Program-made: the position numbers and the translations under genes
Source of the DNA: Halichondria panicea
Taxonomy: Eukaryota > Porifera > Demospongiae > Suberitida > Halichondriidae
Assembly (NCBI RefSeq): GCF_963675165.1
Contig: NC_087382.1
Coordinates: forward strand, 2,395,567-2,459,566
Length of the DNA stretch: 64,000 nt
Direction of reading: 5' to 3'
The notes under the pieces: model-generated
Told to the model about the DNA's origin: nothing
Databases searched by the model: none
What the model saw: the letters and a program-made list of their open reading frames with translations, nothing else
In this document: in pieces, positions 1 through 63,888 of the stretch
Numbering within the stretch: the stretch's first letter is position 1
Layout: every line of letters starts with the position of its first letter

Positions 1-3000
1 GCTCAATACTGGGGGTGGTGGTGTCGCCAGTGAGGGTCAGGTGACCTGTTAGCGTATACACTTCCATGTTAAGGAACGACCTCGTCATGTTACTGCTGGA
101 AATAATCAGAATGACTTGTGACATGATTAAACTCACATCGATTGTCTCGTCGAAAGTGAAATGAATAATACCGCTGTTGAGATCAAGATGATAAGAGAGG
201 AGCTGTGGAGGTGTTTCATCATAAATGTACAGCGCTGCTTGTCGTCCATTGCTACTAGGAGTTGGTTCAACACGGTTCCCGTTCATATCTGACAAGGTTG
301 CTGCTGTCATTGAAATATAAGTGTTATTTCGACTTTGAGCGAGATTTTGCAGTCGTTTGATTTCGTTCAGATCAGTGGGTCCGATCTCTATGGAAACGAT
401 ATAGTCGTTCTCCGTTATAGTGTTGCTAGAGCCAGTGAGGGCGACTGTTTCATCTCCAAGCACTTGTGCATTTCTGATAGTTATCCCAGATGTTAGTAGG
501 GAAGACACATTCATTGTTTCATCGAACGTCAGGTGCAATAGTCCAAAGTTCAAGTCAAATGTGTAGTTGAACAAGCTTGGTGAGGTTAGATCAGCGGAAA
601 AGATTGTAACCACGGCAGCATCAGACTCAGATATCTCGATAACAGGATTGGACCTCATATCTAAAATAGTGGAATTTGGGAAAGAGATGAAAGTTGTTGT
701 ATTGTCAGTAGCAAGATCAGTGATTCTTTTGATGTCGTTCATATCTTCAAAACCCAGCTGTATCAGAATCACAGTACTATCCTCAAGTGAAGACATTGTC
801 GGACTAGCATTGGAACGTGTAGTCAGTCTAAACTGTTGAGTTTGATTCCCATTCCTCATACGCTCATTTTGTAGTACAATTTGAGTCAGTTCCAAACTGG
901 ACGCATTCACAGTCTCGCTGAACGTCAGTAATAGCTCGCCAGAGTTCAAATCAAGGTCAAAGCGCACCAAGTACGGATCTGTCGTATCTCCAGTGAAATT
1001 TCCAACTCTGATACCAGTAGTAATAGCGAGTAAATCCATTCCAGCCCCTCCCACATATTCTGTAAGTGCACCTCCGAAGCTGTCAATAAGATCAGCAGTA
1101 ATAGTTAGGAAGGTATTGGACGCATCAGTAGCTATCGGAATGAGGGCTTTTATCTCGTTCAGATCTCCGCTGGTGAGGTTGACCGTGATGATGTAATCAG
1201 GAATGCTGTTGGAAGAGCCGCCTGTTAAACTGTACGAGGAGGTAGCTAAACTGTTGTCTTGAATTGTGATAGCCCGTGGATTGAGAGTAGCAATATTCAC
1301 AACATTGTCTAAGTGCAGTGTCAGCTCTCCGGAGTCAACGTCCAGATCAAACCTGAGTAGACGAGGGTTTATGTTGTCCTCCATCAGCGTAACCACTTGT
1401 CGACCGTTGTTGGGGGGAATATTGACCAGTGGGTTCCCAGCGAAATCAAACACCGCACCAACTGGTAAAGATATGTGTGTGGTGAGGATAGATGTAGCTA
1501 TTCTACGTTCTAGTACTATCCTGCGATAATCTTCGGCATTGAAATCAAGAATTAAGATTCGTTTCTGATTATCATCAGGCTCAAAGTAGCTGAAAGTTCC
1601 ACCAGTTAGAGTTATATTCACTCCACTTTGGAAAATGTTATCCGGGAATTCTTGTAGCGTAAACATGGTAGGTACAGCCGTTGCTATGTCAACAGGTTCG
1701 TTGAATTGAACCAACATCCGTCGCAATCCAAGATCCAACTCCAAAAAGTCGAAAATGTTTGGATCGATTCTATCACCAACGAATTCGGCTTGCAGGGGAG
1801 GTATAACTATAGCAACGTTATCTGCAAGATCACTGGCTACATCCATGCTGTAAAGAATGTAAGTTGTGTTGGAAGAAATAGCTAATTGTTCTCTGGCTTG
1901 TATCTCAAGGAGATCGTCAGGTGATAAATTCAGCAGTATGATTGTACTATGAAGCGATGGTCCGCTTGCGAACTCACCCCCTGTCAGCTGATACAGTACA
2001 GCTCCCGATACAGAGCTATCGTTGAGGACAGTGATTCCTGCTGGTCTGAAAGCGTTAGATCGAATAGTTTCGCTGAAAGTGAGTTGCAAAGTAGCTTCCG
2101 TCAGGTCCAACAATGCTCCGACTAAATGAGGCCCGATAACATCAGCAAAGAAATCATCTGCCATTCTGTAGTTGAGTTGAGCTAGAGCAATTCCAGAGGT
2201 GTCCTCGATTGTCATTGAACTTGCACTTATGAAGGTGCTGAAGATGTTAACAAAGACATCTACTCTTTGTCTCAAAAACTCCAAATCAACAGTATTGAAA
2301 TAAAAATCAACTACAAGTCCATTTTCAGTTGTTACTATGGTACCCCCGGTGAGATTATAAGCGATAGCAGAAAGTGTTGGGTCATCAGATTCGTGAAGTG
2401 TTATTCCAGTTGGATCGAAAGTACTGATGTTGACAGTTTCTGAAAATCTTAGAGAGACGTTCCCAAACGACATATTTACAGCAACGTATATAATCTCAGG
2501 TGCAGTGATGTCCATTACATAAGGATTGACTCTTATAGTAGGGCCTTCAGTCAGTGCATTGTCGTTCATATCCAAAACAGTTTCGTTTGAAAATATAACG
2601 TAACAGTCTGCACCCAGCAGCTCGTCCGTGCAAAGATCGATAAGTTTGATTTCGTTCAAGTCCGCAATTGATAGCATGTGAGACAGGACTGTACTGTCAT
2701 TGGTTAGAAGGGTTCCCTGTGATAGCGTGATATTGGTTACATCGCTACCAGCACTTCTGCTAAGAGTGAGTGTCTCAATGATGAAGGAAGAACTGTTGAT
2801 AGTCTCGTCGAAGGTGAGGTGGAGGATGCCAGTGTTCAGATCCAGAGAGAAATCAATCAGTACAGGTCTAGTAGTATCAGGTATAAAACCTGTTACCAGC
2901 TCAGCACTGGTTGACGGTACTTCATTTACTCTGTTAGAAAATTGGTCCGCAATCGTTATGTCCAAGATTGAGATATACGTGTTTGTTTCCATGGTAGCAA

Positions 3001-6000
3001 TTTGTGTCCTTCGTTTTATTTCGTTTGTATCCTCGATTGATAGTTGCACAAGTATCTCCGGGTTGTCATAGCTACTGGAGTAGCCACCAGTTAGTGTATA
3101 TATATCACTGTCACTAAAGTTGGAGCTTCCTTGCAGCGATATCCCGATTGTGCTCACGCTTGATCGATTCATGGTCTCGGAAAATAGTATAGTGAGTTGT
3201 CCGAGATTCATGTCAAGATAGAAATTTAATAAACTGGGTCGATTTGTATCAATGGTAAATTGTCGGACTTGCATTCCGTTGCTATTGGTGATACCGACAA
3301 GCTGGTTGTTATAATAGTCCATCACTGACTCACCATCACCTGAAATGAGCAAGTAAGTATTTGCCTTGCTCGTGGCAATTGATTCCAAGCTGCTCAGAAT
3401 ATTTACGTCTTTCATTGTCAGGGATACGATTAGAACAGGGGGGTGAGTGGGAATTTCATTAGGGCCCCCCAGAAGCCCGCCACTTAGAGTGTACGATCTC
3501 AACGATCCCACAAATGTTTCTGGGCGGTTCTCATCGAGATTGACTCCTCTGCTGTCGTTGCTCAGTGCATCAAATTCGAAAGGTGTAGTCTGCAGTGCGA
3601 TTGTGAGGGGGATACTGGGTAATACTTGTACAACCTCTGAAAATGTTAATCTCAGTTCCTCTGTCGTCAAGTCAAGGTCAAAGTACACCAAATAGGGTGG
3701 AGTCTCGTCAGCGATAACGTTTGTTGCAGATACAGAGGATGCAATATTCGGAATGCCACTCGTATCCGAGACTGAACCAGCTGTGATATTGAGAGCACAA
3801 TCGTTGGCAGCGGTTACGGTACATAGGGACTGTCGTATCTTCAATAAATTGTCATCAAAATCGTTCAAGTTCATCACCACGATAGTACAGAAGCAGTCAA
3901 CCACGAAACCACGGCTCAGCGTGTACGATACTCCATCAGCAGGGTTATGAAGTGTTAGTCCATCAGCCATTAGCGTACTAGCGTTAACAGGCTCACTGAA
4001 AGTAAGGGTCAAATTTGCAGAGTCCATATCGAGCGAAAATTGAATAAGTTCGGGAGGAGTGGTATCAGATGTTAATGCATTAACTTGTAGAGCGTCTCCA
4101 TTCGGAACTGGTATCAGATAATTCATTTGCATGTCAAATACAGTACTGCTTCGTACAGATAGGTATGTGTCTATTATTGCAGTAGCTAGAAGTGGTCTAC
4201 TCTTCAGCTCGTTCAAATCAAAATCTGAAATTTGAACTGTTATCACCGGCCAATCTCTAACTTGTCTTGTGCCAATGTTTGAAAATACATACAAATTATC
4301 ATTGCCTGTGGCAATTGGACCATTCAGTATAGTAACAGTTGTTAGGTTGAAATGTCTAGCTCGTACAGTTTCGGAGAAGCTGAACGTAATTTCCCCAGTG
4401 TTCAAGTCAAGGTTGAATGCCTCCAGTACAGGCCTGGTAGTATCAATAGTGTACATACTTGCTTGTAAAGCATTAATGCCATTGACTAACGGTATTAAGG
4501 CCAATCCATTCTTATCTTTGATGCCAGTAGCTTCGATCACAAGCCATGTTGTATCCGTTGATGCTCCAATCTCTCTGGATTTAATCTCATTCAGATCGTC
4601 AAGCGTGATAATGATAGTAATCTCAGTGCTGGAATTGTACGACTCTAAATCTCCGCCTTGTAATCTGTACTGCTTGAAATCGTCGATAATGTGAGAGTCG
4701 GCTTGCAGTGTGAATGAGGTGAAGTTGATACTTGATGCATTAATGGTTTCAAGGAATGTGAGATGTAGCCTGGAGGCGTCCATGTCCAGGTGGTACTCAA
4801 CCAGATGAGGCCTCGTAGCATCAGCTTGGAACTCGAGCGCCTGCAATGCATCGAAATGAGATACAGGTACAACTTGATTCCCACGCATGTCCGATATCAA
4901 CGTGGGGGTGAACGAGATCCAGGATGTGTCCTGGTTTACAAACAGCCCAGTTCGTCTCTTTATCTCGTTCAGATCTTGAATGTTAAACACGATACGAATT
5001 GTCAGTCCGTCCGGACTAGCAGAGGTGCCCCCCAGTAGGGTGTAATATAGGTCAGCATCGTTTGAACGTACTTGACTAGATTGAAGAGTGATTTGCTGGA
5101 ATATGAGTGTTGTTCGATCAACAGGCTCGTCAAAATTCAAAATTAATACGCTGGCGTTTAAATCGACCATAAAGTTCTCAATTCGAGGCATTGTCGTGTC
5201 GTCAGTAAAGTTTAAAGTGCGGAGTATGACTGGATCTGAAGGATTGCTCACCATATCGAGAATTGTGCCTGAGGCCACGTTAATGTAAGTATTGCTATCG
5301 GTAGTGGCAAGAGTTCGTATTTTCTTGATTTGGTTGAGATCGAAGAATTCCAATGGAACAGTTACAACAGGATCGTTGATACCAATAGCCCCACCCATCG
5401 TTAGCGTGTGACTTACAGTGGGCGTGGGATCTTGTAGCGTTATCAGCGTATTATCAATCGATGATATATTAACGGTCTCGTCAAATGTTAGAGTGAGTAT
5501 ACCTTCGTCTAAATCAAACTCAAAATCCAATAGCATGGGATTAGTTTTGTCTTCAACAAATTCTTGCGCCTTGATAGCATTGGAGGGTGTAATTTCAACC
5601 ACAGGCAGATCAACCATGTCCGCAACAGTGACGTTTGTGATACTGATAAACGTGTTTTCTGCAGCTATTGCAAGTGCGTCAATTCGTTTGATATTATCAG
5701 AGTCCGTTTGTCCAATATTTAGAACAATTATCGGACCATTGGGGGATACAGTGAATGTGTTGTCGGGAGAACTGGGTAGAAACGTGTAAGAGATCGAAAC
5801 AGAGGAGTTGCTATCTTGAATCGTAATGGCCGTTATATCTAGAGAGCTGACATTCACAGTCTCAGAGAAATATAGTGTGAGTATTGTATTATCCATATTG
5901 AGATCGAAAGCAACTAACTCGGGATTGGTTTCATCTGCTATAAAGTTAGCAGCTAGCAGTGGCATATTGTTCGTATCCAGGAAGTTCCCACTTGTATCCA

Positions 6001-9000
6001 GCACAGTTGTAGTTTGCAGCTGAATATAAGTGTTGTTCGTTTCAGATGCTAAATCGGTTAAGATTTTTAGCTCATTCAAGTCATCATTCGCAAGTGTCAG
6101 AGATACGAGAGGTGAGTCCTCCATTGACAAGACAGCTTCTCTCTCCGGAGGATGGAACAACAGTGTATAGCTGGTCTCAGTGAAGGGGTTGATGAAGGTC
6201 ACTAGTGTACTGTTGAAGGTATCTATGGCAACCGTTTCGTCAAATATCAGCTGTAGGATACCAGAGTTTGCACTGAAGCTGAAGTTGGTGAGGACAGGAC
6301 TTGATATGTCTGGTAGCCATGTTGTCACTTGTAGAGCGTCCCCTTGTGGTATGGGTGTGATGTTGTTACCAACGGCGTCCATTGCAGCACGATAAGATAT
6401 GGAGAGATAAGTGGTTACGTTGGAAATGGTTAGATCTCGTAGAGCCTTGATAGCGTTAAGATCCGTTGCTGTTAGTTGCACTGTTAGGATAGGTGGATAG
6501 CCAGGACCATTGGGCAACAAAGAAGGACCGAATAACTCTCCGCCAGTTAGAATGTACTCGGATGTTGTATTAGATTCATTCAAATCATTTTGGAACACAA
6601 ATTCAGTGATGATTATTTCGTCAACAACTTCAGAGAATGTTAAATACAACTGACCCATATTCAAATCGAAATCGAAACTGTTCAGAGAAGGATTGGTAAT
6701 ATCTTCTATCACAACATCGGCTGGTCTAGTTTCATTTGAACCATTGAACAGCGAAGTGACTACGTTTCCTACCATATCCCGCACTGTACTGTTTAGGAAT
6801 ATGAAAGTATTATTGCCATCACTCGCTAATCCTCGGATAAATTTAAGTTGGTTAAAGTCCAGTGCACTCAGTACAATCTCAATCAGCGGACCATCGTAGG
6901 AGGAGCTTACACTATCAACCAGGCTGTATGAGATACCATCAAAGCTGCTGGAATTATAGAAAGTTACCGTGCCTGGAATAACCAGAGTAAGTGTGTCAAC
7001 CGTTTCCGTGAAGAGGATTGTTAGTAAGCCACGATTTACATCCAGAGTGTACGAGTCGACATCAGGGGGTGTGGTATCTCGCGTGAAAGTGGTCACCATT
7101 ATTCCTTCCTCTATCGGCACGACATCATTGCTATACATGTCATCTAGAGTCTGCTCGGTTATTCGGAGGTGTGTATTGTTAGAGAAGGTAGCTAGGCTTC
7201 TCAATTTCTTGATTTCGTTTAGATCAAACAGTGTTAGCGTTATTGTAACAATATGAGAGTTTAAGTCCTGTACAACACCGGATGTTAGCGTGTAATAGTC
7301 CAAACCTGGTTCCAGTGTACCCACACCCATACCACTAGATCCAGATCCAGATCCTGATCCTTGATCTCCTATTTCAGTGTCAGGGAACTGTACGAGAGTG
7401 ATGTGTGCAGTGTTGAGAGTTGATACACGAACTGTCTCGTTGAAAGACAGCGTCAAAACTCCGATATTCATATCAAGATCGAAGGCTTCTAGCTCAGGGC
7501 AATTGGTATCAGCAGTAAAGTTGGTAATGGATCTAGCCGAGGTGTTAGCAATGGCCACTACTTGGTTACTGTTCATGTCATCCAGAGATGTGCTTAGGAA
7601 CGATAGGAACGTGTTGTTATTGCTCGTAGCTAGGTCATCGAATAGTTTTAGCTCGTTCATAATGTTAAATCCGAACTCAACATACAGGAAGGGACTATCT
7701 GCGGGTGAGACGGTACTGTTGTAGATGAATAGATAGCTGCCTGGAGAACTGGAGTCACTCTGAATCAACAGCTGTCCCAGTTGCAGGGAAGATGCATTAA
7801 CAGTCTCAGTGAACTCTAGAGTCAGCAGACCAATGTTTAGATCGAGGTCAAATCGTACTAGCTCTGGTCGAGTTGTATCTTCAGTATATTCTTGAACTGG
7901 TTGTGCAGTATCAAATGATATTGGTACCACTTGATTCGTATTCATGTCTATAACAGCCTCAGGGGTGATGGACAAGTGAGTGGTCTCATTGGAAGTTGCC
8001 AATTGAGTCAATCGTTTTATTTCATTGATATCCACATATCCTAACCGTACGATGACAATGGGTTGATTGGGACTGGTGGACTGACTGTACCGAGGATACG
8101 GACCCCCCACCAAGCTCCATCGCTCTCTTGGTGAGATACTACTATCAGATAACAGAGTGATTTCGGACAACATTAGCGATGACACATTCACAGTTTCCGA
8201 GAATGACAATGTCAATATTTCAGTATCTAAATTGAGATCGAATGCAACTAGTATCGGAGGTGTCATATCTTCAGTGAATGTGTTTACCCTGAGGGAATCA
8301 AACTCTGAAATTCCATTCACATAATTATTGTTCATATCTTGTACAGTGAGATTCGTGATACTGATAAATGTTGTAACATTGTTTGTAGCCAAGTTCGTAA
8401 TAGCTTTGATATTATTGAGATCTTCCAGCGAGATAGTTAGGTACAGCACGGGGTCATTTTCCAACAACACATTTCCACCGATTAGAGTATAATTTGAAAC
8501 AGTGGTTTCGTATTCAAAATATTCGAACGAAGTGGTATTAATGAAGGTCATATTCACTGGGTCATAAGTGCTGTTAACGACAGTTATGTTATCTGAAACA
8601 ACCATCACCATGTTCATTACAAGCGTTATCTGGGCCGGATCTAGACTAGATGCATTCACCGTCTCGTCAAAATACAGAGTTAGTATTTCAGAGGTCAGGT
8701 TGAGGTCAAATCGGAGCAACGATGGATTAGTAACATCCATAATAAAATTAGTTGTCATAAACGAATCGTTTCTTGGGATAACATCAATTCCATTTCTGTT
8801 GATATCTTCGATGGAGCTTGATTCAAAGCTTAAGTAGGAGGAGTCACTGGATACAGCTAAACAAGGTTCACGTTTCAAATTGTTCAGATCGTCGAGAGTT
8901 AGCGCAAACGTCAGCTGTATATTATTCCTCATAGAAACTAGAGAACCATTGGTTAGTTGATAAAATACAATATCACAATCTTCATACGGTGACAAATCGA

Positions 9001-12000
9001 TACCAGTGTCACTGCCGCTGGAATCAGTAGTATTAGTTGTGTTCAGTCCAGTACTGGTTTCAAATATGCCCAAATCTCTCACTGCTTGAATGGTTAGCTG
9101 GGAGAAATCAAGCGTACTTATATTAACAGTCTCATCAAAAGTAAACGAGATACGCCCTAAATTGAGATCCAGCACATAGATTAACAACACTGGAGGTGTT
9201 CCATCCGCTTCAAATCCAAGCACCTCCAGGCTAGAATTAGCATCGATGGCTACCAACGGGTTTCCTTTGGTATCTGCAACGGCCATTGTAGTGGCAGCTA
9301 GGAAAGTGGTCTCCTGGGAAACGGCAAGTTCATGCAAGAATTTTATTCGATTCAGATCGTCAGGAGCTAAGTAGATAGTTACTATATCAGTTGGACCATC
9401 AAATGATCGCGTGCGAACGTCTAGCCCCAGGGCATGAGATTGTGTAGCATTGGGAACATTATTATGTAGCATCAGCTGATTAACTTGTAGAGTGGACGTC
9501 CTTACAGTCTCAGTAAAGGAGATAATAATTGTTCCAGCATCGATTGATACATTGTAGCTTACTATTTCTGGTGATGTCATGTCAGGAGTGTACAGACTTA
9601 ACTCGATAGGTTGTCCCATGGTCGTACAGTTCCTCATGAGAAGGGGGCGATCGTTTTGATCAAGAATAGTCTCGTTGGTGTAAGAGAGATACGTTGTTGA
9701 AGGTGATCGAGCAATGTCCAGAGCTTTAATAGCGTTCAAATCTTGCAGTGTGAGAGAGAACGGGATATAAGTGGAGTAGTGGAACTGAGTCATCCATTTC
9801 ATTGCACTACCAAAGTCTCCGCTACCTGAACCACTCGTTCCCACATCAATGCTGTCGAAAGATGCGTTTGTTGTATCGACATAGCAACCAGTCAGCGTGT
9901 AGCTATTATTACAGGTATCACTCGAAGCAAAGGTCAACTGGGTGCAATCAAAACTCGACGCATTAACAGTTTCGGAAAAAAACAGAATGACATCACCAGT
10001 ATCCATGTCAACACTATACCTAGTGATAGCAGGTCGATTAGCATCCTCGATATAACCATTAGCCATTAATGCAAATCCATTGATTATCGGGTAAGCGAGA
10101 TTTCCGTTCATGTCCTGAATAATATTCGGAGTGATGGTGATGTAAGATGTTTCTTCACTCACAAGGAGAGAATCAATTCTTTTGATCTCGTTTAAGTCAT
10201 CATCGGACAGAGTAATTAATATAATCTCTCCATTCCCAGAAGAAGTGTAGCTGGTTGACAAGACTATACCTGTTCGTGACCGTTGTGCGTTCTGCACAGT
10301 CAGCCCTGAGGCATCGAATGTGCTCGAATTCACAGGCTCGTTGAAAAACAGGACCAACTCTCCGAGATTTAAATCCACCATGAACCTGTTGAGAACTGGA
10401 GTAACTTGATCTTGGATTATGTCCAAGGCTTGCAGTGTTGTTCCGACTAATCCATTGGGATTTAGGAAACTAAGATCAATAATGGAGAAGTCGTTGATTG
10501 TGAGGTAGGTGTTGTTGATGGTAGTTCCAAATTCAGGGATCAGTTTTATATAGTTGACATCATCGAGTATGAATCGACTGTATACAATATGACTGTTGTC
10601 TGTGTTCAATATTGAACCTCCAGTTAGTCTCACACTGTACTGGGATGTATTGACAGTCATTTCATTGTGGATTGTTAAACCAGCTGATAGTAGCGTGTTA
10701 ACATTCACTGTCTCGTCAAAAGTGAGGATGAGTTGGTTGGAGTCTAGGTCCAGATGAAACTGCTCCAAGTTAGGTCTTGTCTCATCAACAGTGTACAGAG
10801 ACACAGGAAGAGCTTTTGTTGATGGAATTATATTTACTGCATTTCTGTTCATATCTGCAATTGTTAAACTCTGTATACTAATATACACACTGGTATCATC
10901 GATGGCTAGCGATGTCATTCTCTTGATCTCATTTGCATCTTCTCTAGACAGTACGATAGTGAGTGTAGTAGCGTCTGGATCATTTGTAAAACTTCCTGAG
11001 GTCAGTACGTAATATTCCCCTAGGGTATCATTGAATTCTTGCAGCAAGATGCCTTGCACATTTAGAGAAGTAGTGTTGACAGTTTCATCAAATACCAGGG
11101 CTAGTTCGGTCGCATTCATGTCCAGATCGAAAGACACCAAGTTGGGGGAAGTAACGTCCATTGTAACGTTTGATACTTGGAACGTTTCGCTTGCTTCTAT
11201 AGAAACACTGCTCGTATCAGAAACAGCTTCTGATAGCAGCCTCAAATATGAATTGCTTCTTCCAGTGGCGATGTTGGTAATCTGCTTGATAGAATTCAAG
11301 TCAAAGTTTGTTACTTGCAGAACGACGATGGTGGAGTCTTCTGTTATCACTGTACCATCAGTTAGTTGGTAAGTGATGGACGGGTTTATTGCATCTTGGA
11401 GAACTATCAACGTGGCATTCAAACTTTGAGAATCAACGGTCTCATCGAAAGTGAAAGAAATTTGTCCCAAATTCATATCCAGATCAAATCTTCTCAGAGT
11501 AGGTGGTGTGGTATCTAACGTAAGCTGCGTTGCCATGACTCCTTCCATCGAGGACACACTCACAACATAATTCTCGTTCATATCAATAGCAGTATTGAAA
11601 CTGAAACTAACATACGTGTTGTTGACGCTCGTAGCAAGGTTAGGTAATCGTTTAATCTCGTTCAAATCATACTCTCCCAGCGTCACGATCACTATCGGGT
11701 CATCTCCAGATAATGTCAGACTGTACAGAGGTGGTGTGCCTGCAACTAGCTGCCGCATTTGTATGTCAATTGCTATGGTAACAGGAGCAATTCTGCCCGA
11801 ACCAGATCCACTTCCACTACCACTGCCGCTGATCAATAGCTCAGTGGCTGTGATGTCCATCACGTTCTGTAGAAGAATCTCTGCTACCATTAGCGAAGAC
11901 GTCTCTATGGTTTCATCGAATGTTAGCAGAAGTTGTCCGAGATTAAGATCCAGATCAAACGATAATAGGAATGGATTAGCATTGTCTTGAGTGAAATTGG

Positions 12001-24000: not shown

Positions 24001-27000
24001 TTGAATGAAATTCCCGGCCAGGGGGTCTGAGAGTGAAATAGGTACTACTGAATTGAGGTTCATATCTGAAACTGCAGTGGATAAGATCGACAGGAAAGTA
24101 TTATTTTCCGATGTTGCTAACTGCGTGATACGTTTGATTTCGTTCAAGTCTAGTCGACCAATCTCAATGGCAACAATGTCAGAGTATAATATATACTCAA
24201 CAGGGCCTGTGTTGTTCACGTCTAGCCCGAGGGTGTGGGTACGAGGGTCACTAATGAGATTAGCATCCGCCTCAGATAGCAACGTGAAACCTTCAACATT
24301 CAGAGTGCTGAAAATATTAACAGTTTCTGAGAACGATAACACCAGTAAGTCTAAATTCAAGTTTAGTACGTACTCCATCAAAAATGGTTTTGTTGTGTCT
24401 GAATTGTAGTCCCTAACTCTTCGAGCATCCACACCATTCGTGAGTGGTATATTCGGCTGCTGATTTTGGTCCAAGATAGTGAAGTTTGTCAGTGTGATCC
24501 AAGTGGTAGCCCTGGAGAGAGCAATCTGTCTGGCCTTTATGGCATTCAGGTCCTTCACAGATATGGAGAATTGCACCATAGTAGAGTCTAAACTGCTCAG
24601 TAGTTCCCCAGACGTCAGCGTGTACTGGATGCTAGTGTTGGAACTTGTCTGGAATGTAATGCCGGTGAAATCGATAGAACTTGTGTTAACAGTTTCCAAG
24701 AATTCCAAAGTTACCACACCTGAGTTGAAGTCGAGATCGAAATAGACCAGTTGCGGTCGAGTGGTGTCGTTGACAAAAGCACTAGCCGGGAGAGCATCTG
24801 AGATTGTAATCTCTATCACTTGGTTACGATTCATATCAGCAATCAAATTTGCAGATATGGCAACAAAGGAGGTCTCAATATTCACGAAAAGTACCTCTAA
24901 TCTTTTAATCTCGTTCAGGTCTCCAGCAGCAACGTCCAGTACAATAACTAGACCATCTGGGCTTCTTGTATCCCCTCCTGTAATTTGGTATGTTACATCG
25001 CCATCACGATTATCAGTCAGTGTAATTCCAGTCGGATCAAAGCTAGTAGTGTTCACAGGCTCGTCAAAATTCAAAGTGATTATTCCAGCATTGAGATTAA
25101 TGGATACATTAGTTAGAATAGGACTAGTAGAGTCGAGAGTGTAAGCACTGACTCGTAAACTGTCTGCAAAAGATGGATTTCTTGCAAGAGATAAATCGAG
25201 TACAGCTCCAGGGTACAGCTCAATAAACGTGTCGTTAGGACCGGTAGCTAGGTTAGTATCTAGCTTTAGAACATTTAGATCTTCGAATGTTAGTAGAATT
25301 TGCACGTCTGGCGTATCTTCGATGAGAATTGTACCTCCTGTCAAGTTGTAGTATGAAATGCCTGGGGGGGTGCTGTCTTGTATAGTTACAAGCATGAACA
25401 ATACTGTACTGACATTAACAGTTTCATCAAAGTGCAGCGTTAGAACTCCGCTATTAATATCAGTATCAAATGATTCTATTATTGGGCCAGTAACGTCCTG
25501 TATATAAGTGGACACTTGTAGGGCCATTGTCAAGTACACTGCAACGACAGAATTTCCATTCATATCTGAAATGGTTTTATCACCGATTGAAATAAAAGTA
25601 GAATTTGAATCTTGCGCTAACTGAGTGAGAAATTTGATGGCGTTCAAATCATTTCTTCCAATATCCATTGTAATGGTAGTATTATCAGCGCTACTGGTAG
25701 AGCTAGCTTCTGTCAGTGTGTAGTATTGCCCCAGGGCTGATGGACTGGATTGAAGTGTAATATGCGAAACATTTAATGATTCTGCATTTACAGTTTCAGA
25801 GAATTCAAGAGTGAGAGTACCGGTATCAACGTCAAGGTTAAATGCAGCTAGGTAAGGGTTAATCTCATCAGGTGTGAATAGTGTGACTCGGAGTCCGTCA
25901 ACCACAGGAACAAGAGGGTTAATGTTCATATCTCTAATAGCATCACTGGTGGCTACTATATAAGTGTTATCAGATGATGTTGCTAGGGACGCCAGTCTCT
26001 TGATTTCATTCAAATCATCAGCTCCCAAAAACAAAGTCACTTCTAGTCCATTCTCAGAAGATGTTGTTGTACCATTAATCTCTCCGACTGTTAGCGTACG
26101 CATCTCAGTGCTCAAGGAGTTACTGCTAAATTCACTCTGAAGAGTAAATTGAGAAATATCGATAGAAGAAACATTCACAACTTCAGAGAAGGTGAGGACG
26201 AGCGTTTCGCTGGTTAGATTCAGATCAAAGCGAACCAATTCCGGATCTACTAGATCAGGGAAGAAAGTTTGCACTTGTGGTGCATTGGTATCCGATACAG
26301 GCACAACCAGATTCCCATTCATATCTAGAATAGTACTGTTTGGGAATGTAATAAAAGTGTTGTTGGCATTCGTAGCAAGGTCTGTCTGCAACTTGAGATT
26401 ATTCAAATCATCGGGCCCAAGATTTATAACGATCACAGTTGAGTCTTGACTGACAGTGTAGCTGCTATTCTCCATGCCAACGGTTAGAGTGGTAGTCGAT
26501 ACAACATCCACAATCATGTCAAAACTACCCAGTCCACTCCCGGAATTTCCCATACCAGATCCACTACCACTCGCTGATCCAAGTTCCGGTACCAATGATG
26601 ACGACTCTTGCAACGTTATCAGATCAATCATTAGCGTGGATACATCCACGGTCTCGTCGAAAGTCAGTGATAAAGTTTCTGCGGTTAAATTCAACGAGAA
26701 GCCGGCCAAGAGAGGCGGGGTTTCATCAGGAGTGAAAAAATCAACCAGCCGAGCGCTAAACATTGAGATTGGTGTTATTGTATTGCTTTGTCCATCGCTA
26801 AGCATGTCTCGTATAGTGTCCTCTGTTAGAGCGACAAAAGTTGTGGATGTCGAGTCAGCCAATCCGATTGAACGCTTCAGTTCATTCAAGTCGCTTATAG
26901 TGAGGGTTACTGTTAGTTCATTGGAGAATTGCTCCACCCAGTAGCCATTGCTCAGTGTGAGCACAAATTGAGGCAAATTCGTAGCACTCTGGATAGTGAC

Positions 27001-30000
27001 TTGCATTGGGTCGAAACTGCTTCCGTTGACAGTTTCCGAAAACGAGAAATATATCTCCCCTCTGTTCATATCTAGCTCGAATCTGTCGACGACTGGGGGG
27101 GTACGATCTGGCCGGAACTGGGGGGTTACTTGCAGGGGGGTGTAGTGAGGGGTCAGTCTGTTCTCACTCGTATCGTTGACGGCAAATTCTGTAATTGTTA
27201 GAAACGTATTTTCGAGCCCAGTAGCGAGATTAGGTAGTGCCTTGATGGAATTTAAATCATTTCTTCCGAGGCTTATCGTCACGACCATTCTTGGTGGTAC
27301 TCTTATGAAGTTCCTGCTAGTGATTGTAAAATTTTCGCTAGAATTTCCGACAAGTGTTATCTGAGATACATCTAGATCGAAAGGATCGACTGCTTCAGAG
27401 AATGTGAGATCTAAAGCGCCATTTTCCCCGTTCATAGATAATCGAAACATCTCCAGTTTTGGGCTAGTGATGTCCGGGCAATAATCAGATGCTGATAATG
27501 CATTCTCACGTACGATTGGAATCACATTGTTCTCGTACACATCCTCGATGGTTTCAGCAGTGATAGTCAGAAATGTGTTGTTAATGGTAGTTGCTAAATC
27601 AGTGTTAGCTTTAAGACGGTTCAAGTCTGCTACTGGAATGAACACAAGCAGCACAAAGCCGTTAGTACTGTTAGTGATGGCGTCTTGGTCAAGTTGGGAG
27701 GTCAATAACACTCTGTCGTTTGTGAAGCTTCCAGTAGCGTCACGTTGTATACCAATACCACCAATTTCAACAGGTTGCATATTTCCTGATATCGGCTCTA
27801 TTTGCAGAATATCACTGAAAGTAATCAGCAGAGTTCCCTCGTTCATGTCCAATTTGAACCCTGTGACCTCTGGTCCAGTTCGATCTCTGCTGAACCTATC
27901 GGCCTGCAAAATTTCGGATGCTTGAACATTATTTCCTGCCTGATCCAAAATAGCGCCAAATTCAATTTGAACGAATGTATCTGGATCAGGATCGTCCGTT
28001 GCAAGGCTAGGGTCAAGCTTAATAGCAGCGATGTCATCAGCGGAGATCGTCAAGACAACCGATGTTCGTAACTGGCTAGTACCATATGCAGAGCTACCTC
28101 CTGTCAGATTATATTGGCTACTTGGAGATATATCTGAATTTAGAAGGGTAATCTTTTCGAAATTCACCGATGATGCATTTACTGGTTCGTTGAATTCAAG
28201 TTCTAGAGTACCATCGTCTAAATCAAACAATACAAACTGCACAAGTTGTGGCGATATACGATCATCAAATATGGTACTAGCTTGCAGAGCATCTGAAATA
28301 TTGATTGGCCTATTCCTGTTAGCCAATCGGCTTCTGTCCGTTATCAACTGATCTGTAGTGACAAGGAACGTGTTGTTAGGCTCGGTGGCAAAGTCCTCGT
28401 ATGCTTTCAACTCCCATCGATCTTGAATGGTGAGTCCGAAAGAGATGGTTAAACCGAGATTGCTCACACTTTCAGTATCTCTCACTCCTTGGAGAGTGTA
28501 GCTTCGTGTGAAACTGTCTCCAGGTCCGTTTAAAAGTGTCACTGAGTTGGGGTTAACATCCAGGTCAGACACCGACTCATCGAAAGTTAGAGAGATTGTG
28601 CTGCTGTTAAGATTCAGGTCAAACGCAGCGAGGTTAGGAGGTTCTGTGTCGGGACTATAGGTACCTGGTCCGGTTGCATTCCCGGCGAGTCTCAGTCCAG
28701 CTGTGTTCCCAGACATATCGATAATCGTGCCCTCGCTAAGAGTGATGTATGAGGTACCGGATGTTACAAACAGCTGGCTGTCGAACTTAATAGCATTTAA
28801 ATCATCCGCACTTAGTTGAAATGTGACAACTGTATTGTCATCAGGACTCAATAATAGTCCAGGGTCAAGTATAGTATAAGTAGTAACTGGATTTGGTGAT
28901 GAGTCGACTAGTGTCAGCTCTGTGGCTGCAAAAGTGGATATATCTACCGTCTCATCGAATGTTAGACTCAGGATGCCATCGTTCATGTTGACTGTGAACG
29001 CTACCAATAATGGTGATGTGGTATCATTGATGTATAATGAAGCCATTAGTCCCGTGCATGTGAGGTCTTCGAAATACAGTCTGGCTTGTACAGCTTCAGT
29101 ATCGTTAATCTGTATAACATTAAAGCCATAATAGTCCTGTGCTGTTGAAGACGCTATACTCAGAAATGAGGAATTTAGAGATTTGGCGAGTGGAGATCTT
29201 GGATCCTTGATAATGTTTTCATCGGCAACGGTAAACTCAATGAAAATCAGAGAGTTGAATTCACGCTGGAAAATTCGAGAGTTTTGATCGAGGCCATCCA
29301 ATCTTTCAAGTTCAGTATCAAATGGAGAATTTAGAATTGTAAGACCAGACGGATTAAATATACCAATGCCTGGAACCACTGCTTCCGAGAACTTCAAAAT
29401 GAGATAATTATCGTTCAAGTTTAGATCGAAATATCGCAGACTAGGAGGAGTGGTATCAATCGTGAAGTTGGTGACTTGCACTGCATTGTCAGTACTTACC
29501 ACTTGATTCTCATTATCGTTCATATCCAGTACAGTGCCTATTTCTAGCGATATAAACGTATTATTCTCATTCTCTGTCAAATTTTCAGTAATTTTCAGAG
29601 CATTCATATCGAGATCGATCAATAACTGTAAAACTGAAACACCAGTGTCATTTATGATAGGCTCAGCAAGTCCGACAAAAGTGTGCGATATAAAATTCAT
29701 GCTTTCGGTTTCGTTTTGCAAATTTTGAATTGTTATTCCACCAGTGAATACTGTATTCGGATTTACCACTTCATCAAAAGACAGGCTGAGAATTGCCGAG
29801 TCCAAATCGATATCAAAACCAAGCAGAATGGAACCTGTGGTATCGGGAATGTGGCTTCGAATTTGAGTTATCGAAATGCCCTGAGGTCGTCTGCCATAAA
29901 TGTCAGTGGCGATAAGAGAACTGAACTGCACATAAGTATCGTTAACAGAAGTGGCCAACATCAGATTATTCTTGAGGGTGTTCATATCACGAACAGACAG

Positions 30001-33000
30001 ATATATAACAATCGTAAAATCGTCCCGAGGGTCTACAGTCAGTGCCTCAGGAGACGGATACGGCCCTCGCAGTTGGTACGTATTATTGCTCAAAATTGCA
30101 TCTGAAAACTCTGCAACCAATGGCTGAACTGACTGCACGTCCATGACATCACTGAAGTGTAGCGAGAGAGTGGAGCTGTCCATATCTAAATCAACGTACT
30201 CTAATTCAGCAGGTGTAATATCGTCGATAAAAGCAGCTCTGTTGTTGAGTTTAGTAGCATTGAAGAGATTTGTTGGAATAGCCGGGTTGGAGGACATGTC
30301 AGTAAGAGACGTGGAGTTGAATGCTATCCATGTGTCATCGTCATCAGATGCTAGTACATGGCTCAGTTTGAGAGCTCGGAGATCATTTCTATTGAACATT
30401 ATTTGCACTTGTTGTTTTCGCTCGTCTGCATATGATAAATATCCTCCTGTTAGGAATTGAAATGGTTCAACAACTGTCAAATTCCGATAGACAGTACAAC
30501 CTCTCAGCAACACGGGGTAGAGATCGTCCACGCTTGATTGCATCACTTGTTCCATCATTCTCATCAGATTTTTATCCTCAGTGTCATTTCCTGCCATTAA
30601 TAAACCACTTCCTGAAGCACTTCCTAACCCAGATCCTGAGCCTGAGGCACTTCCAGGTTCAGGGGGAGAAAAGGTTGTGGTCACAGGTGGTGGGAACGTG
30701 GGTGGATTCCGTACGGGATGGAGACCCTGAGGGCATTCCAGTACATACTCACCGGGAGCAAACGTGTGCGTGAGATTATAGATAGTACCATTCTGGAAAA
30801 ACACTGAATAAAAGTCGTTGATAAACTCACGATCGTATATTCGCAAACTTAAGCTCTCGTTTCGTGCGATTGCAATTTCTGTCAGGTTGACTGACGACAA
30901 ACTTATCGATTCATCAAATTGCAACGTAAGTGTCCAGTTATCGAAATTGAAAGCTTTGAACTCTTCCAGCCTAGGTCTGGTGGTATCAGGCACAAAAATA
31001 TTGATCTGTAATGTGTTGATCCCATCGGTACGCTGTGAGATACTGTTACCACTCACATCCTCAATCAGATAATCGTATGTTAGAAACGAGGTTTGCTCGG
31101 AAGAAAATATCGTTTCGTAAGCTTTGAGCAGATTAAGATCAGCTTTTGTCATTGTCCACATTATCTGAAGCCCATTTTCACTTCTTGAATATACGCCTCT
31201 TTCTCGTAGATTGACGCCAACCGTTGCCATGGCATTATCTTGGAATGTTAGGTTCATCGGAGTGAAAGTATCCGCTCGTACAACTTCGTTGAATGTAAAC
31301 GACATTTCCCCAGAATCTAGATCAATATTGTACGATCCCAAAACAGGGGGTGTGGTGTCAGGCACGAACGATTCTGGTTGGTGGAAATAATCCAGCGTGT
31401 TTGCAAGTATTGGAATAATAACGTTTCCGTTCACATCGGATATAAAACTACTCGAAAATCGTATCCAACAGTTACCATCGAAAGTGCAAAGCTCTGTATT
31501 TAGCTTGAGCCTGTTGAGATCATTGCCACCAAGTTGGAAGGTCACGCTCGGACTGTCCTCACCGACTGGAGAGAGCTCGGCAAATGCAAACACGTGAGAA
31601 GCGTTGCCATAGGAACTATCGAGAGAGATCTCTGTAAAATTGAGCGATTGTACTTCAACAGTTTCGGAAAATTGTATCGAAAATGTCCCAGTATTTAAAT
31701 CAAATTCGGTGTAATTTGAAACCGTAGGATTGGTAACATCAGCCATGTAGAATCCAACGGATTCCCCTCGGGCTATAACATTCTGATTGTCAGCTGTGTC
31801 TCGAGTAAGTACAGCTGTGGCCGATAGATAGCAAGAAGAAGAATCAATGCAAATACGCAGCCTTTTGAGCTCATTCAAATCGTTGTCAGATAATTGTATT
31901 TGACTGTAGCTCAGCAACCCAGTGTCTAATGTCAGACTTGATGTTAGTGTGTGGGCGGTAGCAGGGGGTGCTCCAGATGGTTGGTTATGGAACGTTATTG
32001 CCGTGGGTTGCGTTATACTGAGGTCCACTGTTTCATCATAGTACACAGTAAACATACCGGTGTTGTAATCAAGATCAAACCCCTCGACAATCGGTCCACT
32101 TCGATCTTCAATATACGTAGTAACTAATAGAGCATCATTCATTGGTCGGGGCAGTACATAATTGTTGTTCATATCTCTGATAGTTCCCGAGGTTACGCTC
32201 AAGTGAGTGTTGCTTCTGAGGGTTGCCAAATCCGTCAACGCCTTTATCACGTTCAGATCACTCGGGAGGAGGTCAATATCGATGGTTGTGCTCACTCTAA
32301 GGAATGAGATGCCCCCAAGCAGTGTATGAGTGGAAGTGGGCGTGTCTGGTGTATTTTGTATCGTAATTTGAGTGGGATCGAAACTTGTAATATTCACAGA
32401 CTCGGAAAATGTGAGTGAAAGCACTCCGGTGTTTAAATCAAGAGTGTACCTATCGAGGGTTGGTTTCGTTAGGTCAGCCGTGTGACTGGTTATCTGTAAG
32501 GCTTCATCTCGTAGTATCGGCACAACAGAGTTGCCACTTGTGTCGCTAATAGTTGCAGCATCAATTGTGATAAATGTGTTCGTATCCATGGTAGCGAGAG
32601 GAAATGTAGCCGTGATAGCATTGAAATCAGTATCGGAGAGGTTGACAATCAGTACAATCCCATTGGCCGACAGAGTTGTACTAAAAGCCCCGAGGGTAAC
32701 AGTTTGTGTGGGATCACTACTCCTGTCTTGCAGTTGGACTCGAGTTACGCTGAAAGTTTGCGAAGAAATTGTTTCATCAAAAGTTAGCGAGAGAAGTCGT
32801 TGGTCCAAATCAAGAGAGAAACTTATCAACTGTGGTGAAATTGTATCACCTATAAAGTTTGCAACTTGTAGAGAGTTAGTGGATTGCACCTCGACAACGA
32901 CATTACCAGCTGCATCTTGCACTGTGTTGGCAGTGTGAGAGATAAAAGTATTTGTATCTGAAGTGGCTATATCGCTCATTGCTTTCAGGTTATCAGCGTC

Positions 33001-36000
33001 ATCATCAGCCAGCTGTAGAATCAGGATAGTACCGTCGGCTTGTGACGTTATATCTCCTCCAGTGAGTGTGTGTGAAGTGGTACCTGTGAGGGCGGAGCTA
33101 ACTCGGCTCTGTATCGTCACTTGAGAGGGATCAAAGGTTGAAGCTCGAGCAGTTTCTGAGAAGGTCAAGAAAATTTTTTCTGTGCCCAAATTGAAAGTGA
33201 AACCGGTAAGTACAGGAGGTGTAATATCGGGTATAAAATTGAACACTTGCAGAGCAGAATCGATTGAAATTTCAGACGCTTGATTTCCGTTAATGTCCTC
33301 GACAGTTCGTGGTAGGATAGTGATGAAGGTATCGCTGGGTGCAGTGGCTAGATTGTCTATTGCCTTGAGGGCGTTCAAATCAAAGCTACTTAGTTGAACG
33401 GAAATTTCTGCACTGTCGATATTTGAGGGAACGCTATTGACAAGTGTATACGTGACAGTAGATCTGAGACCACGATTAGCCAGAGTTAGTCCAGTCACAT
33501 CAAAAGTGGCGGCTGAAACTGTTTCATCGAATGCAAGGATAAGAGTACCTGTGTTCATGTTGAGAGAAAACTCCCGTAGAGTTGCGACAGTTGTATCTTC
33601 CATGTATTGCTCTGCTTGTAATGCTTGTACTTCACTGATTGCTATCACTCTGTTTAAATTCATATCTGAAATAGCGTTGATAGTGATTGATATGTAAGAG
33701 TCGGCTATAGATGTTCCCAACCCTCTGTCAGCTTTGATGGCGTTGGCATCTTCCTCTGAGAGTTGTATGGCAAATATATAATCAGCATCTGATGGAATTA
33801 GTTCACTAAAGCCTGTAAGAGTGTAGCCAGTTGTACTTCCTGCACCGGCTAGTAGCCGCACATTTCCAGGCTGCAATGTGAGAATATCAACTGTTTCTGT
33901 AAAGGTTAGAATGACTTGCACAGTGTTCATATCCAGAGTCCAGCTTTGCAGCTCAGGTCTTGTAGCATCTAGCATATAACGTGAGGCTTGTATAGCTTTA
34001 CTATCTGTGATAGCTGTAGCATCTTCTCCATTCACGTCGTCCGCTACGCTTGCTGTGACTGTCAGGAAGGTATTAGTCAGATCTGTAGCAAGATTTCTAA
34101 TTTGCTTGATTCGATTTAGATCTACAATGCCAATGGTAACTTGCATCAAAAATCCATCACCCATAGAACTTGATGAAAACTCAGAAGTCAGTGTATGCCA
34201 TTCCATAGGTACCCTATTGACTGCATTCTGTAGCGTAAGAGCACTTACATCAAAAGTTAAACCAACAACAACATCGTCGAATGTTAAGACCAATTCCCCG
34301 ATATTCAAATCAAGAGTGAAGTCAATCACAGTAGGCGGTGAGGTATCGTCCGTGAAGGTTCTGACTTGGATAGCTTGTGAAAGAGGCACTGCTACACTCG
34401 TGAGGCCGTTAGTATCTTGAGCTAGTCCAGATTGTGTTGAGAGATAAGTGTCAGTTATGCTCGTGGCTATGCTCTGATTGACCTCCAAGAAAGTGATGTC
34501 ATCGTTTGTGAGCTCGATTGTGATAACGGCCGAAGCAGCTTGTGGTGTGGGCACTATTACACCACGTAATAGTTTACGGGTAACGGCACCACCATCTTGT
34601 GAAGAGCTGACGATCAATTGGCTAGGATCTACCGTACTCACTAAGACTGGCTCTGTAAAAGTCACCGTAATGGAGTTAGTATCAAGGTCGAAATCAAACG
34701 TCATTATCTGCGGTGGAGCTAAATCCGGTACAAACATGGCGGCCATTTGCGGGTTAGCGTTTGAAATAGCTTGCACCCTGTTCTCAGGATAAGTGATATC
34801 ACGTACAGTATTAGCGTCCATACTCAGATAGGTGTTAGCCAAGGCTGTAGCTAAATCTGGTCTCGATTGCAATGCATTTATATCTTCATCGGAAAGAACG
34901 ACTTGAACTACAGTTCCAGACGATGTTAGAATTGTACCCTCGGTCAGCCTATAAAGAAGAGCTTCATCGCTAACCCCAGGTGCTGCCAGAACAGTAAGAC
35001 CACTGATATTGAAGGAGTCAAATGCTACAGGCTCATCGAAAGTGAGCTGTATTTCACGAGAAGTTAAATTGAGAGTGAACTCTTCCAGAACTGGCCCAGT
35101 TGTATCATCTGTGAAAGAGACTAAGTATCGCTGTGTTACACTGCCTCCATTAGCTATCTCCATGACGTTGTTTCCTGCCATATCAGAGATGAATCTACCT
35201 GGAGATGCAATAGTCAGCCAACAATCTGATGCAGACGTGCAAATCCGAGGGGACAGTTTCAATCTGTTCAGTTCTTCGCGAGGGAACGTGAAAGTGATGC
35301 TAACATCGTTCATGCAGTCAGCAGAATCACAGGTCAGCGCTTGGACATTGTATGAGTCTGACACCAGTGATATTTCAGCATGGTGCTGAAAGAACAGAGT
35401 ACCTGGTAATACAACTGAAGCTGTGTTAATAGGCTCATCATAGCGGATTGTAAACTTGCCAGAATTTAAATCGAAACTTTCGAATCCATCTTGGACAACA
35501 TTCGGCCTGATAATATCAGCTACGTACACATTCACCTGTTCTGCATCACTCAGTGGATATGCTCGTAATTCATCGCCTGAGGCTTCAATGCCATTTCCAC
35601 TCTCAATCACAAGATAGCTAGTTAACTCCCCTGTCGCTAAGTTCTGATCGAGTTTGATTGCATTCAAATCTTCCGTAGAGAGAGAAATAGAAACTGAAAT
35701 ATCAACAATCGTAAATCTTCCTGAACATGCAGACAGTTGATAGGTCGAAGCTGAGTTTGGCACGTTTGTTCTAGTGATATAAAAATAATACCATTCAATG
35801 TACATTGTGATAGCTTTATACAATAGATCAATTGAAGAAAGGCTTAACATTGGCAATGGAGTATATTGCATCCGAACTTGATAATGGTGAGTGATATTAC
35901 ATGTTACTAAACCAATCTCTCTACAGGCAAGCAACATAATTTCCCATAATGAGTAAGCTACGCTAACTGTAAAGGATAATCTCTTACTGTCTGTCAGAGA

Positions 36001-36504
36001 GGGAGATCTTGGTGCAATCAACTGTAGAGCCAGTGTCCAGAGAACTCGCAACTACTGTTATCTGTAGCACCCCAGCATTCAAGTCCAACTCCCAGGAATC
36101 AAGCTCAAGATCTGTATACAAGAGTTAGTGCATTTTCAATTCCGTTCATTTCATACCCTATATAGCGTAGGGTATTTCAATTCACAAGGCCTAAAAAAGA
36201 GAAACCCTCCCCCATTTCCAAACTCAGTATCATACCAGTTACAGCTGATAACATAATTATTGAATTAACACAATAACGATGTGATATATAGAACTTGATG
36301 TTGTTGTACATGCATGCAAACTACAATGTTATGTACTCCACTCTCGTTGACTCTTTATATATACAGCCATTCTAGTTATATTACAATATCACATAAAAGC
36401 GAGTCGTGCTCCTGATATATTAACTCACTCTGTCCATTGGCAACTTGTGAAGCAGTTATTACTAGCAGTGCCAACAATGCAAAGCTCATCTTGAAGTTAG
36501 ACAT
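1..36504 (-). CDS. Giant secreted repeat protein, 5' part (at least 11,876 aa in window)
   Basis: I infer four exons: 36504-36429, 36111-35988, 35770-17652 and 17310 to beyond position 1. All three introns have GT-AG ends and the reading phases join exactly (phases 1, 2 and 1). The start ATG at 36504 opens a signal peptide (MSNFKMSFALLALLVITAS), and a second in-frame ATG is at 36489. The mature chain begins at once with the first repeat (LDSWELDLNAGVLQITV) and continues as a tandem array of about 125-residue repeats. In exon 4 the frame was checked at 17300, 12512, 8882, 4202 and 2 and stays in register. No stop is reached before the window edge, so the C-terminus (anchor, membrane segment or other domains) is unknown. 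The product should be extracellular: signal peptide, very many N-glycosylation sequons, Ser-Gly runs and few cysteines. The function is not recognised; a structural or adhesive matrix role is inference. The preceding gene ends 855 bp upstream on the same strand. Confidence 0.85.
7331..7370 (-). other. Ser-Gly insert in a giant-protein repeat
   Basis: This encodes GDQGSGSGSGSSGMGVG between the ITLQ-type strand and the YTLTSG strand of one repeat. Acidic residues flank it. Ser-Gly pairs are possible glycosaminoglycan attachment points. Confidence 0.6.
9815..9840 (-). other. Short Ser-Gly insert in a giant-protein repeat
   Basis: This encodes SGSGSGDFGS inside a longer insert placed after a YTLTGC strand. 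That position differs from the usual one before the YTLTGG strand. Confidence 0.5.
11794..11831 (-). other. Ser-Gly insert in a giant-protein repeat
   Basis: This encodes LISGSGSGSGSGSGR, six Ser-Gly pairs in a row, between the ITLQ-like strand and the YSLTLSG strand. Confidence 0.6.
16843..16902 (-). other. Ser-Gly/Asn-Gly insert in a giant-protein repeat
   Basis: This encodes SGSSSGSGSGSGSGNGNGG, followed by a potential N-glycosylation site (NRT). It is among the longest of these inserts. Confidence 0.6.
17311..17651 (-). other. Intron 3 of the giant gene (341 bp), the only break between two giant exons
   Basis: The donor is ACAG|GTGAGTTAATG and the acceptor is TTATTCTACAG. The intron is AT-rich with TAATTATT-type runs, like the other introns here. 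The frame upstream stays open for some 40 codons into the intron before a stop, but that stretch has no repeat character. Splicing joins phase 1 to phase 1 and restores a normal repeat, which strongly supports this intron over a true gene end. Confidence 0.85.
18838..18872 (-). other. Ser-Gly insert in a giant-protein repeat
   Basis: This encodes TSGSGSGSGSGSGLR, located between LTFISE and FTLTGGEN, the standard insertion site. Confidence 0.6.
21760..21798 (-). other. Ser-Gly insert in a giant-protein repeat, unusual site
   Basis: This encodes SISGSGSESGSGLL. It lies between TYLSLVS and IRDMAGN, a different loop from most other Ser-Gly inserts, and is preceded by several N-x-T/S sequons. Confidence 0.6.
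26526..26586 (-). other. Ser-Gly insert in a giant-protein repeat
   Basis: This encodes ELGSASGSGSGMGNSGSGLG between LITLQES and the YTVS strand. Glutamate precedes the first Ser-Gly, as in many glycosaminoglycan sites. Confidence 0.6.
30600..30660 (-). other. Pro-rich plus Ser-Gly insert, the largest loop in exon 3
   Basis: This encodes EPGSASGSGSGLGSASGSG, preceded by a proline/threonine stretch (PPTFPPPVTTTFSPP) and followed by an acidic, Met-rich segment, all before FLTGGYL. The whole loop is over 90 residues. It has two extra cysteines (ECPQG and RGCTV) that could close it. Confidence 0.6.
35771..36428 (-). other. Introns 1 and 2 with 124-bp exon 2 of the giant gene
   Basis: Intron 1 is 36428-36112 (317 bp) and intron 2 is 35987-35771 (217 bp, donor GTAAGAG, acceptor ATCACTAG). 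Exon 2 (36111-35988) encodes the first half of repeat 1, from LELDSWELD to ISLSDR. The open frame seen through intron 2 up to 36051 is read-through, not coding: it lacks the repeat pattern, whereas splicing restores the expected ISLSDRQ-TNVPNSASTYQLS order. Intron 1 is AT-rich and I see no other gene in it. Confidence 0.75.
36429..36504 (-). other. Exon 1: signal peptide of the giant repeat protein
   Basis: This is 76 nt of coding sequence, 25 codons plus one base. The peptide has a short basic start (SNFK), a hydrophobic core (MSFALLALLVITA) and a likely cleavage region around QVANGQ. The donor is CAGA|GTGAGT. The single left-over A joins AT of exon 2 to make Asn. This places the first repeat a few residues after the predicted cleavage site. 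Without this exon the array would lack any export signal, so it decides that the protein is secreted or type I membrane-bound. Confidence 0.8.

Positions 36505-43004: not shown

Positions 43005-63888
<20,884 letters not shown>

Follow-up and report, generated by a model that had tools for sequence, protein, structure and literature searches.

Three giant repeat genes in the sponge Halichondria panicea and the conserved order of their domains

The genome of the demosponge Halichondria panicea contains three giant genes, here called A, B and C, each predicted to encode a long array of a repeat of approximately 125 amino acids (aa). Most of gene C is contained in a 64,000-nucleotide stretch of contig NC_087382.1 (assembly GCF_963675165.1, positions 2,395,567 to 2,459,566), referred to as the window; features outside the window are given in genome coordinates on the same contig, C6. 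A first-pass annotation, made from the letters of the window, had proposed a single gene with four exons joined in exact phase, in which a signal peptide is followed directly by about 90 copies of a 125-residue repeat over 11,876 codons without a stop.

Gene C, its relatives A and B and a smaller member

Gene C is read on the minus strand. Exon 1 (window 36429..36504) holds the start codon and a signal-peptide-like sequence, MSNFKMSFALLALLVITASQVANGQ, and ends in phase 1; exon 2 (window 35988..36111, 124 bases) begins the first repeat-like domain, and exon 3 (window 17652..35770, 18,119 bases) carries the repeat array without interruption. The intron between the two giant exons (window 17311..17651, GTGAGT...CTACAG) falls inside a repeat at residue 6106.3, and exon 4 (window 1..17310 and further leftwards, 30,110 bases in total) continues the repeats and then encodes three TIG domains, one Calx-beta domain and a conserved tail. 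All introns are GT...AG, the exon phases match exactly, and splicing yields 11,876 codons within the window and zero stops, as proposed. The repeat does follow the signal-peptide-like start, with 98 profile matches in the window part covering 93.7% of its residues (86 of them spanning at least 75 of the 123 profile positions). Neither a stop in the 17311-17651 gap nor a frameshift in exon 4 is present, which leaves the reading as one gene standing. The 6,172-codon frame of exon 3 has a probability by chance, given the base composition, of log10 P approximately -171, which excludes chance.

The frame closes at a TAA (C6:2382767) that lies 12.8 kb beyond the left edge of the window, giving a complete product of 16,142 aa (1.765 MDa, isoelectric point 4.05). 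The gene had been described as incomplete and among the very large ones of animals; the size stands and the frame is now complete, but another family member in the same genome, A, is larger at 41,576 aa. In the last ~450 residues the three TIG domains and the Calx-beta domain take the place of the repeat, with matches that exceed the Pfam cut-offs (E 1.5e-26 for the TIG stretches and 9.4e-7 for Calx-beta); Pfam scans of the giants covered three pieces of C, 24 triplets and the C-tail (last 666 residues), with A and B outside them. The tail after these domains reads CQVLSNICLADWNIETNSLTYYRVPEELP. Among the 97 homologous proteins collinear with C (C-type, by the rule given below), 16 align through residues 16139-16142 with 0-4 residues to spare, and since they stop at the same place the modelled C-terminus is very likely the true one. 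Copies of a C-terminal piece of C lie at C6:2329666-2329926, 2330647-2330841 and 2354791-2354982 (L032, L033), with identities of 82, 63 and 84%; at least one is split across two frames, and frames judged by eye to be tyrosine-kinase-like lie alongside on the opposite strand.

The boundary between the giant exons recurs in other genomes, as 32 of the 97 C-type homologues end at residues 6105-6125 and 10 begin at 6100-6125. Homologues P0121, P0122 and P0123 cover nearly all of exon 3 at 63, 63 and 46% identity. Further homologue boundaries near residues 2309 (32 starts) and 10502 (7 ends, 9 starts) have no counterpart in this genome, which suggests that introns were probably lost in this lineage and that the giant exons were enlarged thereby.

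A search of the same genome found two further giants at 7.36-7.54 Mb of the contig, arranged head to head. Gene A (minus strand) consists of a signal-peptide-like exon (C6 7491870-7491933) and a main exon (C6 7365156-7489822) that is single and uninterrupted over 124,667 bases including the stop, with a modelled product of 41,576 aa and 4.486 MDa and a log10 P by chance of -1187. Gene B (plus strand, start codon at C6 7495376) has no intron and a modelled product of 16,085 aa. The repeat profile matches 335 times in A and 132 times in each of B and C, and between the repeats of A and B there are zero gaps of more than 60 aa.

The ends of A and B are likewise common to homologues. Thirteen of the 72 A-type fragments extend to residue 41520 or beyond, halting within 0-34 residues; three of them (P0046, P0124 and P0227) terminate in Gly-Asn like A, the others in different residues, and P0275, a EukProt protein labelled Trinity that is not among the 72, also terminates in Gly-Asn. 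A missing last exon of A was rejected, if less firmly, on these shared ends and because no repeat follows (best match E >= 0.9 in the 15 kb past the end). For B, 15 of 41 B-type fragments extend to residues 16080-16085 with 0-6 residues to spare. Directly after B, kinase-like and kelch-like frames (C6:7544736-7547144, plus strand) were judged by eye to be a separate gene; the idea that B forms the extracellular portion of a receptor kinase was rejected, given that the kinase-like frame has its own Met and the C-terminus of B is common to its homologues. Just past the end of A lie two near-identical tandem frames (C6:7356850-7357797 and 7361236-7362081, minus strand), glutamine-synthetase-like by eye.

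A smaller fourth member has a frame at 2246584-2249298 (region C6:2245301-2249300, L043). The frame is cut off at the edge of the stretch analysed and is followed on the same strand by cysteine-rich frames without any Pfam match; this gene could be a relative of receptor type.

Divergence of the repeats and order of the domains

The repeats of the three genes differ widely from one another. Identities were compared for 566 well-covered repeats of the 599 matches (90,371 pairs aligned over at least 90 residues); the best match of a repeat has a median identity of 39% and the highest pair reaches 51.2%. None of them has thus duplicated recently, and recent tandem expansion was rejected for the same reason.

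Despite this divergence, the domains stand in the same order in other sponges. Counting a protein as collinear if no fewer than 5 of its domains, and 40% of those with a match, are in order at an offset within 2, 210 of 310 homologous proteins are collinear with one gene (A 72, B 41, C 97), and all those carrying organism names are from sponges. P0168 follows A from its start with 61 of 61 matched domains in order at 68% identity; further along A the same holds for P0160 (59/59), P0172 (56/56) and P0124 (52/52), and P0132 follows B from its start (59/60) and P0121 follows C (43/43). Fragments with at least 38% identity (56, 41 and 93) tile 99.9, 100 and 99.8% of A, B and C, and the net length change is below 100 aa in 198 of the 210 best alignments. 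When the observed collinearity was compared with 500 shuffles of domain order per protein, no shuffle matched it for proteins from Geodia (10/10), Dysidea (37/60, 40/50 and 28/36), Amphimedon (28/38) and Corticium (12/50 and 13/46), an Ephydatia piece (29/42) or a EukProt protein labelled Trinity (7/26). Corticium is a homoscleromorph, and the four other genera belong to separate lineages of demosponges. Hence, much of the domain order is older than the demosponge split.

Ephydatia gene models G018690, 691, 693, 694, 697 and 699 match successive parts of A from the middle towards the start, whereas G018700, 701, 703 and 704 match B, running forward from its start. Judged by these gene numbers, the head-to-head pair of A and B seems to be kept in Ephydatia. 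The three genes do not appear to be copies of one whole array, an origin we rejected because collinearity between genes does not exceed 200 shuffles (A to B 15/332, null maximum 16).

Gene A has a further level of order. It is built of a strict 23-domain super-repeat with 14 full units, in which cysteine-marked domains form doublets at phases 0, 1, 12 and 13, filling 56 of 56 places; this is a higher-order repeat of fixed domain number, as in titin.

Elsewhere in the window, exon-like frames at 54944-58475 (minus strand) encode cadherin domains (E 7.5e-13 and 5.8e-18, plus a third match of 2.0e-4 that falls short of the cut-off). They place a cadherin gene upstream of gene C, and both genes share one strand. 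Within its region a 50-base unit is repeated in tandem at 57697-58120 (8.4 copies, 94% matches). At 62125-62554 there is a TG array of 430 bases, in which long His-Thr frames arise by chance.

Fold of the repeat and possible roles of the giant chains

The repeat is predicted to have an immunoglobulin (Ig)-like fold, closest to that of SbsC, as the predicted model (predicted local distance difference test, pLDDT, 94) matches the SbsC-like Ig-type beta-sandwich over the whole domain. The bacterial surface-layer (S-layer) proteins SbsC and SbsB and the Pfam family Big_5 (PF13205) have approximately 10% identity to the repeat, which, unlike them, occurs here in hundreds of tandem copies and in a eukaryote. 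The Big_5 profile scores 10.8 bits in one 1,000-aa piece (cut-off 23.6 bits), reaches E <= 0.01 in 5 of 24 triplets (best 6.7e-6) and is found precomputed on some homologues. Glyco_hydro_5_C (PF18564), which normally adjoins a GH5 enzyme domain, scores 30.2 bits in one 1,000-aa piece and 20.8 bits in one triplet (cut-off 22 bits), with 3 of 24 triplets at E <= 0.01; no enzyme domain was found in the pieces scanned. The top two Foldseek matches are to the bacterial grappling-hook protein GhpA of Aureispira (E 6.7e-7 and 1.2e-6), but their template-modelling scores are only 0.12-0.15, so the overall shape is unmatched.

The first-pass annotation had not recognised the protein as titin, a mucin or a Fat cadherin, and in the pieces scanned this is borne out. 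The three pieces of C, the 24 triplets and the C-tail contain no Pfam match to the I-set Ig, FN3 or kinase domains of titin, and no cadherin repeat was matched in the scanned pieces of C. Unfolded Ser/Thr/Pro-rich repeats of the mucin type are not seen either, with proline at 4.1% and the repeat modelled as folded at the confidence given above.

We give roughly even odds (approximately 0.5) to the reading that the three giants are secreted extracellular cables or rulers of fixed length, built of predicted Ig-like domains in an order common to several sponges. Secretion of the products is predicted from the signal-peptide-like starts, an excess of sequons and the lack of a clear membrane span. 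Each product would then form an extended chain of fixed length in the extracellular matrix, in which calcium, bound at putative sites of nearly invariant acidic residues where domains meet, would make the chain stiffer. Through the fixed domain order, each region could have a partner of its own, and the cysteine doublets, at every 11 or 12 domains, may be points of regular contact with a matrix partner. By analogy with titin, at 4 nm per domain (PMC7427331), A would measure ~1.3 micrometres and its super-repeat ~92 nm. That hundreds of repeats have stayed in order, domain by domain, would be difficult to account for if neither length nor position mattered.

Several observations weigh against the cable or ruler. 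The signal peptides were judged by eye rather than by a predictor, and hydropathy outside the N-terminus comes near the membrane threshold of 1.9 (1.88 in A, 1.85 in C). Dibasic pairs exceed shuffles in B and C (60 vs 18-34 and 69 vs 19-39), which would suit processing. Of all the homologues, 100 of 310 are non-collinear; in the tested proteins of Oopsacas (P0020, 1,478 aa, the one relative found there), UC1 and Salpingoeca rosetta (one each, the latter two being choanoflagellates) the repeat is present and its order is not kept. The ruler idea is carried by A, since C shows no period beyond shuffles and that of B is weak. A bolder version, which we hold tentatively and would not bet on, is that A is the sponges' own titin: a secreted, calcium-stiffened ruler of more than 1 micrometre, with a 23-domain super-repeat, marked by cysteine doublets every 11 and 12 domains, setting a ~92-nm lattice (half-steps of ~44-48 nm) in the body matrix, and with 335 domains fixed before the living demosponge lineages split.

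The array could instead be a highly variable surface for adhesion or recognition, binding microbes or telling self from non-self, with a separate ligand for every domain and a length that is incidental. Every domain is indeed different (median best paralogue identity as above), Calx-beta and TIG domains stand at the C end of C, and the smaller gene has related domains followed by cysteine-rich frames; yet comparison between genomes shows conservation of the array and not variability, as in the A fragment with 61 of 61 domains at 68% identity and in the near-zero net length changes, and we think this reading unlikely. It is also rather unlikely that the long acidic chains are packed laterally into a gel- or S-layer-like coat over cells or matrix without a ruler function, given that a fold match to S-layer proteins is no evidence of function and that a coat leaves the kept domain number and the 23-domain register unexplained.

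A giant precursor that is secreted and then cleaved into its repeat units, with chain length playing no part, would fit uniform repeats behind a signal peptide and the dibasic excess of B and C. However, furin-type sites number 0 in A, 0 in C and 2 in B, A has no dibasic excess (68; shuffles 42-69), and a fixed order with an exact 23-domain register over 14 units would be needless for units that are cut apart, which makes such a polyprotein improbable. That the genes are an assembly error, a repeat-array artefact or pseudogenes is scarcely credible. Predicted proteins of this size are unusual, and one of ~48,000 aa from Oopsacas minuta was dropped as aberrant during annotation (PMC10280926), but the repeats are too unlike one another for assembly expansion or collapse, and the same arrays, boundaries and ends are present in other genomes. 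Together with the frame probabilities of A and of exon 3 of C, this led us to reject chance and assembly artefact.

Comparison with known giant proteins

Sponge aggregation factors carry Calx-beta domains and a Wreath domain. Like their core proteins, C has a Calx-beta domain, once at its C end, but unlike them the bulk of C is another repeat. Multiple Calx-beta domains were not found, with one in the last 666 residues of C and none in the other scanned pieces.

Sponge proteins of giant size from a single exon are already in the literature. Aphrocallistes vastus has a protein, Avas.s016.g412.i1, of 49,014 aa and 5.34 MDa from a single 147-kbp exon (PMC10282587), so A holds no size record. The repeat is not named in the accessible parts of that paper or of PMC10280926, and the likeness to the Aphrocallistes and Oopsacas giants is one of sponge origin, of size and, in Aphrocallistes, of the single exon. 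We found no description of the repeat family, of a domain order conserved across sponges or of the 23-domain super-repeat in the literature searched, with preprints and most subscription papers outside it. Genes of such size are easily split or discarded in annotation, as suggested by the ten Ephydatia models for two giants and by the removed Oopsacas prediction.

Titin has 38,138 aa (4.2 MDa) encoded in 363 exons, the largest of 17,106 bases, and super-repeats of 7 and 11 domains. The 11-domain super-repeat corresponds to the 43-44 nm filament repeat, and deletion of two of them gives a shorter filament. Like titin, the giants described here are chains of Ig-like domains, as predicted, of similar size and, in A, with a higher-order super-repeat; unlike titin, they belong to another domain sequence family, are likely secreted and include, in A, an exon of 124.7 kb. 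The parallel is one of analogy and not of kinship. If made as a protein, A would exceed titin in length, and the feature that marks titin as a molecular ruler, a super-repeat with a set number of domains, would also have arisen outside muscle, in animals that have none.
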